NCBI RefSeq assembly: GCF_027257175.1 | Contig: NZ_JAPFGD010000008.1 | Span: 62,001-126,000 of the forward strand | Direction of reading: 5' to 3' | Length of the DNA stretch: 64,000 nucleotides | Source: Castellaniella sp. S9 | GTDB lineage: Bacteria > Pseudomonadota > Gammaproteobacteria > Burkholderiales > Burkholderiaceae_B | Shown here: piece after piece, positions 58,573 through 62,097 of the stretch | How the letters are laid out: every line of letters begins with the position of its first letter | Position numbering within the stretch: the first letter of the stretch is position 1 | Made by a program: the position numbers and the translations under genes | Notes under the pieces: model-generated | What the model saw: only the letters and a program-made list of their open reading frames with translations | Databases searched by the model: none | What the model was told of the DNA's origin: nothing

Positions 58573-58683
58573 ATGCCCGGCCTGCGGATCGACCTGGTCG
58601 AAGGCACCATGGGACTGCTCATGGACATGCTCGGCCAGGGCGACCTGGACATCGTCATGGGGCGGACGGTCGACGAGTTCCGT
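58573..58683 (+). pseudogene. internal fragment of a LysR-type regulator
   Basis: The frame reads PGLRIDLVEGTMGLLMDMLG then QGDLDIVMGRTVDEF, the start of a LysR effector domain. Everything before and after it is missing: an in-frame stop lies nine bases upstream and the match ends near 58683. The same frame runs on into arsR without a stop, so annotation software may wrongly fuse the two. It is probably a leftover from insertion or deletion when the arsenic genes arrived. Confidence 0.7.
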
Positions 58684-58749
58684 CATCGCCATCCGCGAAG
58701 AGGGAATGCCAGTCCAGAGAGAAGATTTTTTGTGTTCCAGAGGCTTTAC

Positions 58750-58757: not shown

Positions 58758-58781
58758 ATTATTCGACTATTATCGAATAAT
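58758..58781. promoter_or_regulatory. ArsR operator, 9-bp inverted repeat overlapping the arsR start
   Basis: ATTATTCGA and TCGAATAAT are exact reverse complements around CTATTA. The right arm includes the first bases of the arsR ATG. The AT-rich dyad just after the -10 box is where ArsR repressors bind and leave on As(III) or Sb(III). Confidence 0.75.
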
Positions 58782-59163
58782 GGAAATAAAAGAAGCCGTA
58801 AAAACGCTCGCCGCGATCGGGCACGAATCCCGTCTCGTCGTCTATCGATTGTTGGTGCAAGCCGGCCCGGCAGGATTGGCCGCGGGTGAAATCGCGCAAA
58901 AGGCTGGCATGGCACCGTCGTCGCTGTCCTTTCATCTGAAAGAGCTCGTGCATGCGGGATTGCTGACATCTCGCCAAGAAGGACGCTTTGTCATCTATGC
59001 GGCGCAGTTTGACACCATGGCGGCTTTGCTTGCTTACCTGACCGAAAACTGTTGCGAGGGCGAGCCTTGCCTGCCGGCGCTGCAAGCTGCCCAGTGCGCG
59101 CCCAACAAGCTCGAGCGCAAGCGGGAACACTCTTCCTCTCAGCGAGTCGCACACCATGACTGA
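58780..59163 (+). CDS. arsR: arsenic-responsive repressor ArsR (ArsR/SmtB family)
   Basis: A 127-residue winged-helix repressor. KTLAAIGHESRLVVYRLLVQ and the recognition helix AGMAPSSLSFHLKELVHAGL are typical. The metalloid site is at the C-terminus: Cys91, Cys92 and Cys97 (ENCCEGEPC), as in the Acidithiobacillus-type ArsR rather than the CxC of plasmid R773. A further Cys106 is nearby. The start at 58780 is set by the family length and the operator; the same frame continues upstream into a LysR fragment. It overlaps arsC by eight bases. Confidence 0.92.
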   Translation: MEIKEAVKTLAAIGHESRLVVYRLLVQAGPAGLAAGEIAQKAGMAPSSLSFHLKELVHAGLLTSRQEGRFVIYAAQFDTMAALLAYLTENCCEGEPCLPALQAAQCAPNKLERKREHSSSQRVAHHD

Positions 59164-59671
59164 CAAGATTTACAACGTACTTTTCCTGTGCACGGGCAAT
59201 TCTGCACGCAGCATTATGGCCGAGGCCTTATTGAACAGCCTGGGTAACGGACGATTCCGCGCCTATAGTGCCGGCAGCCACCCTGGTGGGGCGGTTAACC
59301 CGTTTGCCATCGAGAAAGTCCGATTGCTCGGCTATCCACTTGAAAATCTGCGCAGCAAGAGTTGGGATGAATTTGCGCTGCCCGGCGCACCGCAGATGGA
59401 TTTCATCATTACGGTGTGCGATAGCGCAGCCGGCGAAGTCTGTCCTATTTGGCCGGGTCAGCCCATTTCGGCGCACTGGGGCTTCGAAGACCCCGCCGCG
59501 GCCCAAGGCAGCGACGAAGAAAAGCGGCGCGTGTTTGAAAAGGTGTTCCGACAAATCTCGACCCGGATCCATGTGTTCATCAGCCTGCCTCTGGCCGTGC
59601 TGGATAAGGCGGCAATTCATCGCGAATTGAAGGATATCGGTGCCACCGCTGTCGAGCCGCAACAATCGTAA
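59156..59671 (+). CDS. arsC: arsenate reductase, low-molecular-weight phosphatase type
   Basis: Reduces As(V) to As(III) for export. The 171-residue protein has the P-loop CTGNSARS (C-x5-R) in YNVLFLCTGNSARSIMAEAL. The middle of the chain carries FIITVCDSAAGEVCPIWPG with two more cysteines, and HWGFEDPAA holds the Asp acid. It is the LMW-PTPase-like ArsC. It overlaps arsR and precedes arsB by 24 bp. Confidence 0.93.
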   Translation: MTDKIYNVLFLCTGNSARSIMAEALLNSLGNGRFRAYSAGSHPGGAVNPFAIEKVRLLGYPLENLRSKSWDEFALPGAPQMDFIITVCDSAAGEVCPIWPGQPISAHWGFEDPAAAQGSDEEKRRVFEKVFRQISTRIHVFISLPLAVLDKAAIHRELKDIGATAVEPQQS

Positions 59672-59695
59672 TCTGATAGCCGCAACGCCTCTACG

Positions 59696-60979
59696 ATGTT
59701 TGCAGCCGCCGCAATTTTTATTCTCACCCTGACACTCGTCATCTGGCAACCGAAAGGGCTCGGCATAGGTTGGAGCGCCAGCCTGGGCGCCGTGCTGGCC
59801 CTTCTCGTTGGTGTCGTGAACTGGTCCGATATCCCGATTGTATGGGGCATCGTCTGGAACGCCACGGCGACCTTCATTGCTGTGATCATCATCAGCCTGC
59901 TGCTGGATGCCGCAGGTTTCTTCGAGTGGGCGGCCTTACATGTGGCGCAGTGGGGGAAAGGTCGCGGCCGTGCGCTTTTCGCACTGATCGTACTATTAGG
60001 TGCTTGTGTCGCGGCCGTGTTTGCCAATGATGGCGCCGCGTTAATCCTGACCCCGATCGTGATGGCCATGCTGCTGGCGTTGGGGTTCGGTCCGGCCGCA
60101 ACGCTCGCCTTTGTGATGGCCGCTGGCTTTATTGCCGATACGGCCAGCCTGCCTCTGATCGTGTCCAATCTGGTCAACATCGTATCGGCCGATTTTTTCG
60201 ATATCAGTTTCAGCCGCTATGCGGCTGTCATGGTGCCGGTCAATATGGTGTCCGTGGCGGCAACCCTGCTGGTTTTGTATTTGTATTTTCGCAAAGACAT
60301 CCCGGCCCAGTATGCGGCCACCCGACTGAAAGCGCCAAAATCGGCCATCCGGGATCCGAGAACGTTTCGGGCTGGATGGGTCGTGCTGATACTGGTACTG
60401 ATCGGTTTTTTTGGGCTGGAGCCCCTGGGTGTGCCCGTCAGCGCGGTCGCCGCAGTGGCGGCGCTCATCTTGTTGGTGGTGGCAGGGCAGGGGCGCGTCA
60501 TCAGTACGCACCGGGTCATTCGCGAAGCGCCCTGGCAAATCGTGATTTTCTCGCTGGGCATGTATTTGGTCGTTTATGGCCTGCGTAACGCCGGCTTGAC
60601 GCAATACCTGGCGGATATGCTGACGCGATGTGCGGAGCAGGGACTGTGGGCCGCCACGCTGGGAACGGGTTTGATTGCCGCTTTTCTGTCGTCGATCATG
60701 AACAACATGCCCACCGTGCTTGTAGTCGCTCTATCGATCGACGCTAGTCAGGCGGGCGGCATCATCAAAGAAGCGATGGTCTACGCCAATGTGATCGGCA
60801 GCGATCTGGGGCCCAAGATCACACCCATCGGCAGCCTGGCCACTTTGCTGTGGCTGCATGTGCTCGAACGCAAAGGCATGCGGATTTCCTGGGGCTATTA
60901 CTTCAAGGTTGGCACTGTATTGACGTTGCCCGTACTGCTCGCGACTCTGGCCGCGCTTGTATTCAGGCTCGGAGGGTAA
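59696..60979 (+). CDS. arsB: arsenite efflux permease ArsB
   Basis: A 427-residue inner-membrane As(III)/Sb(III)-proton antiporter with about 12 spans. The sequence shows [60 protein letters not shown] and [18 protein letters not shown] then [20 protein letters not shown]. These are typical of the ArsB (R773) type rather than Acr3. No arsA or arsD is nearby, so it should work alone. It ends the operon; the dif site lies 85 bp downstream. Confidence 0.95.
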
Positions 60980-61063
60980 GTACGACATTGTCCCGTCACC
61001 AACGCCGCTGCGAGAGCCGGGCAGACGTCAGAGGCGCCGGCCCTTTAGGGACATCCATTCTTG

Positions 61064-61091
61064 ACTTTACATAATATACATTATGCGTATT
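61064..61091 (-). other. dif: dif site (XerCD chromosome dimer resolution)
   Basis: On the minus strand the 28 bp are: XerC arm AATACGCATAA, centre TGTATA, XerD arm TTATGTAAAGT. From memory of the E. coli dif (arms GGTGCGCATAA and TTATGTTAAAT, same centre), 23 of 28 bases agree, including the whole inner 19. The site is intergenic, between arsB and the polysaccharide gene. dif marks the replication terminus, where XerC and XerD resolve chromosome dimers under FtsK control. Confidence 0.9.
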
Positions 61092-61101
61092 AAGTCCGGG
61101 A

Positions 61102-62097
61102 TCAAGTCACCGGCGCCGAGGCCCGCCCGACCCCTGTCGCTCGCCGCGCCGCGAAATCGTCGATCGTCCGTCGCAGGCCGTCCTCCATGCCGATGACGGG
61201 CTGCCAGTCCAGGTGGCGCCGCGCCAGCGTGATATCGGGACAGCGGCGCTTGGGATCATCCGCGGGCAGCGGCAGGAAGCGGAACGGCGCCTCCGTGCCG
61301 ATCAGGTCGCCGATGCAGCGGGCGATGTCCAGCACCGTGGCCTCGCGGGGATTGCCCAGGTTCACCGGCCCATGAAACGTGGAGCCGCTGGCCATCAGGC
61401 GCATCAGGCCTTCGATCAGATCGTCCACATAGCACAGCGAGCGTGTCTGGCTGCCGTCGCCATGGATGGTCAACGGCCGTTCCCCCAGCCCCTGGACGAT
61501 GAGGTTCGACACCAGCCTGCCGTCGCCCGCCGACATGCCCGGCCCGTACGTATTGAAGATCCGCGCGATCTTGGTGTCCAGGCCGTGGTGGGCGCCGTAA
61601 TCGGAAAACAGGGTTTCGGCGCAGCGCTTGCCCTCGTCGTAGCACGAGCGCAAGCCCACGATATTCACGTGGCCGCGGTAGGATTCGTGCTGGGGATGGG
61701 TCCTGGGATCCCCGTAGACTTCGCTGGTCGACGCCTGCAGGATACGCGCGCCGGCCTCGCGGGCCAGGTCCAGGAGGTTGCGGGCGCCATAGACGCAGCT
61801 GAGCAGCGTATGGACGGGATCCGCCTGGTAATGCGTGGGCGAGGCCGGACACGCCAGGTTGTAGATTTCCGCCACCGGCGGATCGATCGGGATCGGCTCG
61901 ACCACGTCGTGGATCAACAGGAAAAACCGGGGATGACCCGACAGATCCTCGAGGTTCTCGCGGGATCCGGTTTGCAAATTGTCCAGGCAGACGACCGTGC
62001 GGCCCTCCGCCACCAGGCGCCTGCACAGGTGCGCACCCAGAAAGCCCGCGCCGCCGGCCACCAGCACCGGTCCGGACTGAGTCGAATGTCTATTCAT
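61102..62097 (-). CDS. NAD-dependent epimerase/dehydratase, UDP-glucuronate decarboxylase-like
   Basis: A 331-residue short-chain dehydrogenase. The NAD motif is LVAGGAGFLGAHLCRRLVAE. The UXS hallmarks are YNLACPASPTHYQADPVHTL, the catalytic Ser/Tyr/Lys region (ASTSEVYGDP; CYDEGKRCAETLF), KIARIFNTYGPGMSAGDGRL and the ending CPDITLARRHLDWQPVIGME. These fit conversion of UDP-glucuronate to UDP-xylose. It overlaps the glycosyltransferase gene upstream by eight bases and ends 10 bp before dif. It probably supplies a sugar to lipopolysaccharide or capsule. Confidence 0.88.
   Translation of the reverse strand: MNRHSTQSGPVLVAGGAGFLGAHLCRRLVAEGRTVVCLDNLQTGSRENLEDLSGHPRFFLLIHDVVEPIPIDPPVAEIYNLACPASPTHYQADPVHTLLSCVYGARNLLDLAREAGARILQASTSEVYGDPRTHPQHESYRGHVNIVGLRSCYDEGKRCAETLFSDYGAHHGLDTKIARIFNTYGPGMSAGDGRLVSNLIVQGLGERPLTIHGDGSQTRSLCYVDDLIEGLMRLMASGSTFHGPVNLGNPREATVLDIARCIGDLIGTEAPFRFLPLPADDPKRRCPDITLARRHLDWQPVIGMEDGLRRTIDDFAARRATGVGRASAPVT

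Follow-up and report, generated by a model that had tools for sequence, protein, structure and literature searches.

A chromosomal dif site adjoining an ars operon in Castellaniella sp. S9, and arsenite pumps near dif across its family

The window analyzed here, a stretch of 64,000 nucleotides from the draft genome of Castellaniella sp. S9 (G000), covers positions 62001 to 126000 of a contig of 255,379 bases (C32) and holds, close to its right end, an arsR-arsC-arsB block followed by a complete 28-bp dif site on the minus strand (window 61064-61091; C32:123064). Dif is the short sequence at which bacteria separate fused sister chromosomes ahead of division. The site reads in the 11-6-11 layout with a GC content of 0.214 and occupies the intergenic gap 60980-61101, between the end of arsB at 60979 and the end of the next gene, on the minus strand, at 61102. 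The features that the argument draws on are as follows.

58573..58719, plus strand: possible remnant of a LysR-type regulator, a weak match (PF03466, E 0.0047, below the Pfam cut-off)
58780..59163, plus strand: arsR-like regulator (NF033788 with the longer frame, 60.9 bits, above cut-off; PF12840, PF01022)
59156..59671, plus strand: arsenate-reductase-like protein of the low-molecular-weight phosphatase family (PF01451, above cut-off); GC 0.566
59696..60979, plus strand: arsB, arsenite efflux pump (NF011980, 702 bits; PF02040); GC 0.585
60485..60492, plus strand: nearest KOPS, GGGCAGGG, aimed at dif, the last of 15 in the window
61064..61074, minus strand: XerD-side arm, TTATGTAAAGT
61075..61080, minus strand: central hexamer, TGTATA
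61081..61091, minus strand: XerC-side arm, AATACGCATAA (arm layout as in the available text of PMC2731167)
61102..62097, minus strand: NAD-dependent sugar epimerase/dehydratase (PF01370), first gene right of dif

An earlier note on this DNA had described an intergenic site with both Xer arms and an exact TGTATA center, and all of this is borne out at exactly 61064-61091; its statement that the inner 19 bases equal the E. coli core is likewise correct, CGCATAATGTATATTATGT being identical to the E. coli K12 dif printed in the available text of PMC2731167. The uniqueness search that it proposed returned the 28-mer as the sole match with up to three mismatches in the draft genome (3,807,583 bases in 33 contigs, 99.99% completeness, in which a copy in an assembly gap is possible), and the 21-base core has one further match there, with 3 mismatches, on a different contig. 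No match with up to three mismatches was observed in 100 shuffles of the window, and with a weight matrix dif scores 60.4, while no other place on the contig exceeds 10.7 and five shuffles reach no more than 6.4. Among 151 family genomes, the S9 genome included, 133 contain the core with at most one mismatch, as a single copy in 132 and as three copies in G036, while a degenerate core with up to three mismatches is present in 51 of 61 genus, family, and order genomes. The center among relatives is mainly TGTATA or TGTGTA, and both forms occur in the genus of the window. Two copies were found in G009, one of them within DNA that is 97.5% identical to G002 over 10 kb; the assemblies of G009 and G036 are both fragmented and are assumed to be mixed, and G036 was excluded from all counts of distance to dif.

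The cognate machinery is encoded in the same genome, with an XerD protein at 373.9 bits (cut-off 329.6), an XerC-like protein at 332.1 bits, 3 below the cut-off of 335.15, whose best family is nevertheless XerC (249.1 with the XerD model), and two FtsK gamma domains, one of 93.2 bits within a 793-residue frame and one of 63.9 bits (cut-off 30.6 for both). We conclude that 61064-61091 is almost certainly the chromosomal dif site of an XerCD/FtsK system, and as such it is an ordinary fresh instance of a well-known kind. By analogy with known systems, converging KOPS would guide FtsK from the septum to dif, where it would activate XerD, upon which XerD and XerC on the two arms would exchange strands around the 6-bp center and so resolve chromosome dimers. 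We infer binding of XerC and XerD, recombination, and an FtsK requirement at this site on the same analogy.

KOPS, which in E. coli are oriented from the origin to the terminus (PMC2680272, available text), reverse polarity on the contig: GGGNAGGG occurs 31 times on the plus and 6 times on the minus strand left of dif, and 3 and 22 times, respectively, right of it (Fisher P 1.6e-8), with 31/37 on the left and 22/25 on the right aimed at dif. The best switch interval, C32:122485-129180, contains dif, and within the window all 15 copies lie on the plus strand and aim at dif, with none on the minus strand. Part of this polarity is general strand composition, since GGGNAGGG ranks 4th among the 33 permuted patterns that have at least 20 copies. 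Similar reversals are seen in two single-contig genomes, namely, the same-genus G002 (44/1 and 5/33; switch interval 850255-852035, dif at 850704) and G014 (50/4 and 4/42; switch interval 2333983-2339852, dif at 2335418), in which the skew, taken over 400 kb of sequence, peaks 2.2 kb and 53 kb from dif, respectively. The gene directions that the earlier note had taken as expected at a terminus do hold in the window, where only about 2.9 kb lies to the right of the site, and hold statistically on the contig (38 plus and 15 minus genes on the left, 16 plus and 42 minus on the right within 60 kb of dif, by a simple gene caller). We regard the KOPS reversal as strong evidence, and gene direction within one window as weak evidence.

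GC skew on the contig is positive over roughly the first 80 kb and negative beyond 220 kb, and in between it is weak and mixed. The cumulative curve forms a noisy plateau around dif with no sharp peak there; its maximum lies at C32:197441, 74 kb right of dif, and the least-squares change point at C32:81415, 42 kb left of it. GC skew was discarded as a terminus locator on this contig as too noisy. The earlier note had asked for agreement between dif and the skew flip: dif lies inside the neutral zone, so that the refutation named there does not take effect, but a sharp switch at dif itself is not seen either.

The dif identification agrees with all computational tests made other than those for a sharp GC-skew switch and for an XerC score above cut-off. 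The earlier reading is supported, with the refinement that dif marks the terminus of segregation and dimer resolution, while a replication terminus inside the window is likely. In Pseudomonas aeruginosa PAO1-UW, according to the available text of PMC6199493, replication ends far from dif: the skew switch is no more than 15 kb away from dif, yet 682 kb separate it from the replication end, and dif is therefore best named the segregation terminus. A genuine dif with forks meeting elsewhere, on unequal arms, so that only segregation ends at dif, has accordingly been demonstrated in that strain; it would also fit the flat skew over about 140 kb of our contig and a draft assembly in which the arms are not measurable. 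We nonetheless judge this unlikely for S9, given that the shorter arm between dnaA and dif makes up 0.486 to 0.500 of the chromosome in 7/7 single-contig relatives measured (seven genomes of exact length, leaving out G032 and the drafts G000, G018, and G035; dnaA is present in 11/11 genomes searched). Replication forks likely meet near the window dif. The segregation terminus of the host chromosome is in this way fixed to the base, which orients arguments about replication direction in the window.

On the XerD side of dif, the arsB gene stops 84 bp short of the site and is oriented toward it. Together with the arsR-like gene, whose likely start is 58780 within a longer frame from 58573, and the reductase-like gene, whose product also matches TIGR02691 at 86.5 bits, below cut-off, it forms a block (58780-60979) with a gene GC of 0.57 to 0.585, compared with 0.64 to 0.72 in neighboring genes; the GC drop sets in at about 58.6 to 58.8 kb and is over by about 61.2 kb. 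The earlier note is silent on the arsenic genes next to dif. The truncated LysR-type trace lies just upstream of this low-GC block and could be an insertion scar. On the other side of dif, the first three minus-strand genes encode the sugar epimerase/dehydratase, a group-1 glycosyltransferase, and a heptosyltransferase-family protein. Here, the first DNA match of more than 250 bp in several same-genus loci is reached only at about C32:133.8 to 134.3 kb, whereas in G002 the block matching this region starts 2.7 kb from dif, so that both flanks of the window dif look like insertions. A plasmid origin of the ars block was considered and rejected: none of the 34 plasmid records that match covers 80% of the query, the best place reaches 80 to 90% identity in 3 and 60 to 80% in 31 of them, and the six matches listed show approximately 72 to 74% identity over the pump gene. 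Elsewhere in the S9 genome, outside the window, an integron integrase is encoded (NF011946, 799 bits; locus L048, contig C27 at about 249 to 250 kb).

Arsenite pumps also lie close to dif in other members of the family. In the survey of the 151 family genomes, distances were taken only where a genome has one dif match, and a locus on another contig counted as not near. Taken together, arsB and acr3 provide 198 usable loci, 8 of which are no more than 1.5 kb away from dif, compared with 0.15 expected from uniform spread. For arsB (TIGR00935; 120 loci in 103 genomes, 111 usable), 11 loci lie within 10 kb and 28 within 50 kb of dif by nearest edge (8 and 28 by start coordinate), where uniform spread over 4-Mb genomes gives about 2.8 within 50 kb; these 28 loci span 14 of 31 genera. 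For acr3 (TIGR00832; 91 loci in 68 genomes, 87 usable), the counts are 5 within 1.5 kb, 8 within 10 kb, and 9 within 50 kb. Among the other families counted, chrA (TIGR00937, 106 usable) has 4 loci within 10 kb and 16 within 50 kb, and adjoins arsB in some genomes (G011 and G135); nadA (TIGR00550, 40 usable) has none within 10 kb and 6 within 50 kb, five of these in the genus of the window; and kdpA (TIGR00680) has none of its 44 usable loci within either distance. Related genomes are not independent and shared descent is only partly removed, so these counts serve as yardsticks rather than tests.

The eight closest pumps come from three genera and are arranged in four different ways. In S9 and G007 (0.67 kb from dif in the latter), ArsB is placed on the XerD side and oriented toward dif; in G098 it is placed on the XerC side and oriented away from dif. 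The acr3 gene is oriented away from dif on the XerD side in G001 and on the XerC side in four genomes of one genus (G028, G087, G113, and G134). In G028, an arsR-like frame adjoining acr3 terminates within the dif site itself (locus L071, 10016-10342).

Within the genus of the window, ten flank loci from nine genomes were aligned with our contig, taking dif as the origin. Six pairs have in common a block that touches dif and is at least 89% identical, and in five of the six the block ends within 70 bp of dif. These five cases are not independent, as some genomes recur in more than one pair and the G009 assembly may be mixed. The match ends at +70 in G002/G009 (97.5% over 10 kb) and in G008 paired with the second G009 contig, and at +33 in G004/G008; it starts at -1 in G001/G008 and at 0 in G005/G009; and it runs past dif to the contig end in G004 paired with the second G009 contig. 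In G001 (L056, 10000-12908) and G008 (L063, 9669-12575), dif and an adjoining 2.9 kb are 96.9% identical, compared with 76 to 90% in the other blocks that the two share, which indicates a younger common history of this piece than of its surroundings; in G001 it encodes an arsR-type regulator, a glyoxalase-family protein, an ACR3-type pump, and an ArsC-family reductase. In G005 (L060, 10239-11566) and G009 (L065, 7711-9038), a 1.3-kb piece on the XerD side of dif is 99.85% identical and forms part of a Tn3-type transposon region with a KfrA-like protein. Genes noted in this region are a Tn3-type transposase in G005, the KfrA-like protein in both, and an integrase-family protein in G009. No second dif-like site was found at the far ends of the aligned same-genus pieces.

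In this family, dif has the look of a place at which arsenic operons dock. The full form of this reading, in which such operons preferentially land on the flanks of dif, unrelated pumps having arrived there repeatedly and been swapped between species, possibly with the help of XerCD cutting, stands at about an even chance. Repeated arrival is supported by the two pump families, on both sides and in both directions, and by the junctions at dif. Apart from the identification of dif itself, and less firmly than that, we propose that the flanks of dif in the family are places of insertion or exchange of foreign DNA, arsenic operons included. The main competitor, somewhat less probable, is a single inherited neighborhood of the terminus region that was reshuffled locally, without repeated arrival. 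The ArsB tree, built from 43 of the 120 loci, largely follows genera, and near and far labels are strongly clustered on it (none of 500 shuffles gave so low a value), although no fewer than four changes between near and far are forced; catalase and azurin-type genes, moreover, recur beside near-dif arsB in several genera. These clusters occur in five genomes each, and most gene clusters around arsB are not common to different genera, as judged with a caller that had been trained on the high-GC contig of the window and missed many genes in low-GC relatives. The clustering on the tree and the recurrent catalase and azurin-type neighbors mean that part of the pattern is inheritance. Inheritance accommodates less well that the pumps within 1.5 kb represent two families of no common origin and vary in both side and direction, that two distant ArsB lineages in the genus of the window are both near dif, and that the ACR3 operon shared by G001 and G008 is more alike than the other blocks of these genomes.

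Much less probable still, and in our view very unlikely, is that the window dif forms one end of an intact mobile element that uses Xer, with two dif-like ends and arsRCB as cargo, on the model of dif-integrated phages and islands or of the Acinetobacter pdif modules. A 2.3-kb block of lower GC does end at dif, ArsB of the same-genus G007 is placed and aimed in the same way, and matches between close pairs in the genus often end at dif, which is a known integration site (PMC2731167, available text), just as modules bounded by pdif are known (PMC9501444, available text). Yet the 16-base core, with up to three mismatches, has no match in the window other than dif and the same site read in reverse, the weight matrix does not exceed 2.6 in the 5 kb left of dif, and no second dif-like junction for the far end of such an element was found in the window or on the contig. 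Seven scanned genes beside dif gave no match to a recombinase or phage family, and only one of the 10 same-genus loci, in G003, has a second site of note, with a score of 9.6. About 2.1 kb from dif on the XerC side, the G003 locus (L058, 1363-1390) shows a near-perfect palindrome that looks like a pair of XerD arms and could be the junction of an element integrated at dif.

For the reading of repeated landing, Xer recombination, homologous exchange across dif, and transposons are the candidate routes of arrival. If the pattern survives correction for shared descent, Xer delivery, an insertion-tolerant terminus, and a place suited to expression become testable against each other. We treat arsenic operons at dif as a lead of moderate interest. 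A literature search for genes of arsenic or metal resistance located at dif or in the terminus region, including the available parts of PMC9501444 and PMC10011098, yielded no report of the pattern; foreign DNA beside dif is known, while recurrent arsenic cargo there was not found in print.

The site itself compares closely with printed dif sequences. The dif of Bordetella pertussis Tohama I, AATTCGCATAATGTATATTATGTAAAGT, as given in the available text of PMC2731167, has 27 of its 28 bases in common with the window dif, including the same center and the same GC of 0.214, and differs by one base in the outer XerC arm, which answers the comparison with relatives that the earlier note had suggested; in B. 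pertussis the site lies 1,345 bp from the GC-skew maximum of the chromosome. The E. coli K12 dif of the same source shares the inner 19 bases and the 11-6-11 layout, whereas the outer bases of both its arms are unlike those of the window dif. Adaptive genes adjoin Xer sites in the Acinetobacter plasmid pdif modules as they do in the window, but these modules lie between two plasmid pdif sites (PMC9501444, available text), whereas the window has one chromosomal dif, and no second was found. The available text of PMC2731167 places mobility genes beside approximately one-quarter of 161 surveyed dif sites and describes filamentous phages that integrate at dif, and the Proteobacterial mobile DNA that it describes resembles the situation here in that foreign-looking DNA adjoins dif. 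The same text has no mention of “arsen,” whereas in the family of the window the recurring neighbors of dif are arsenite pumps.
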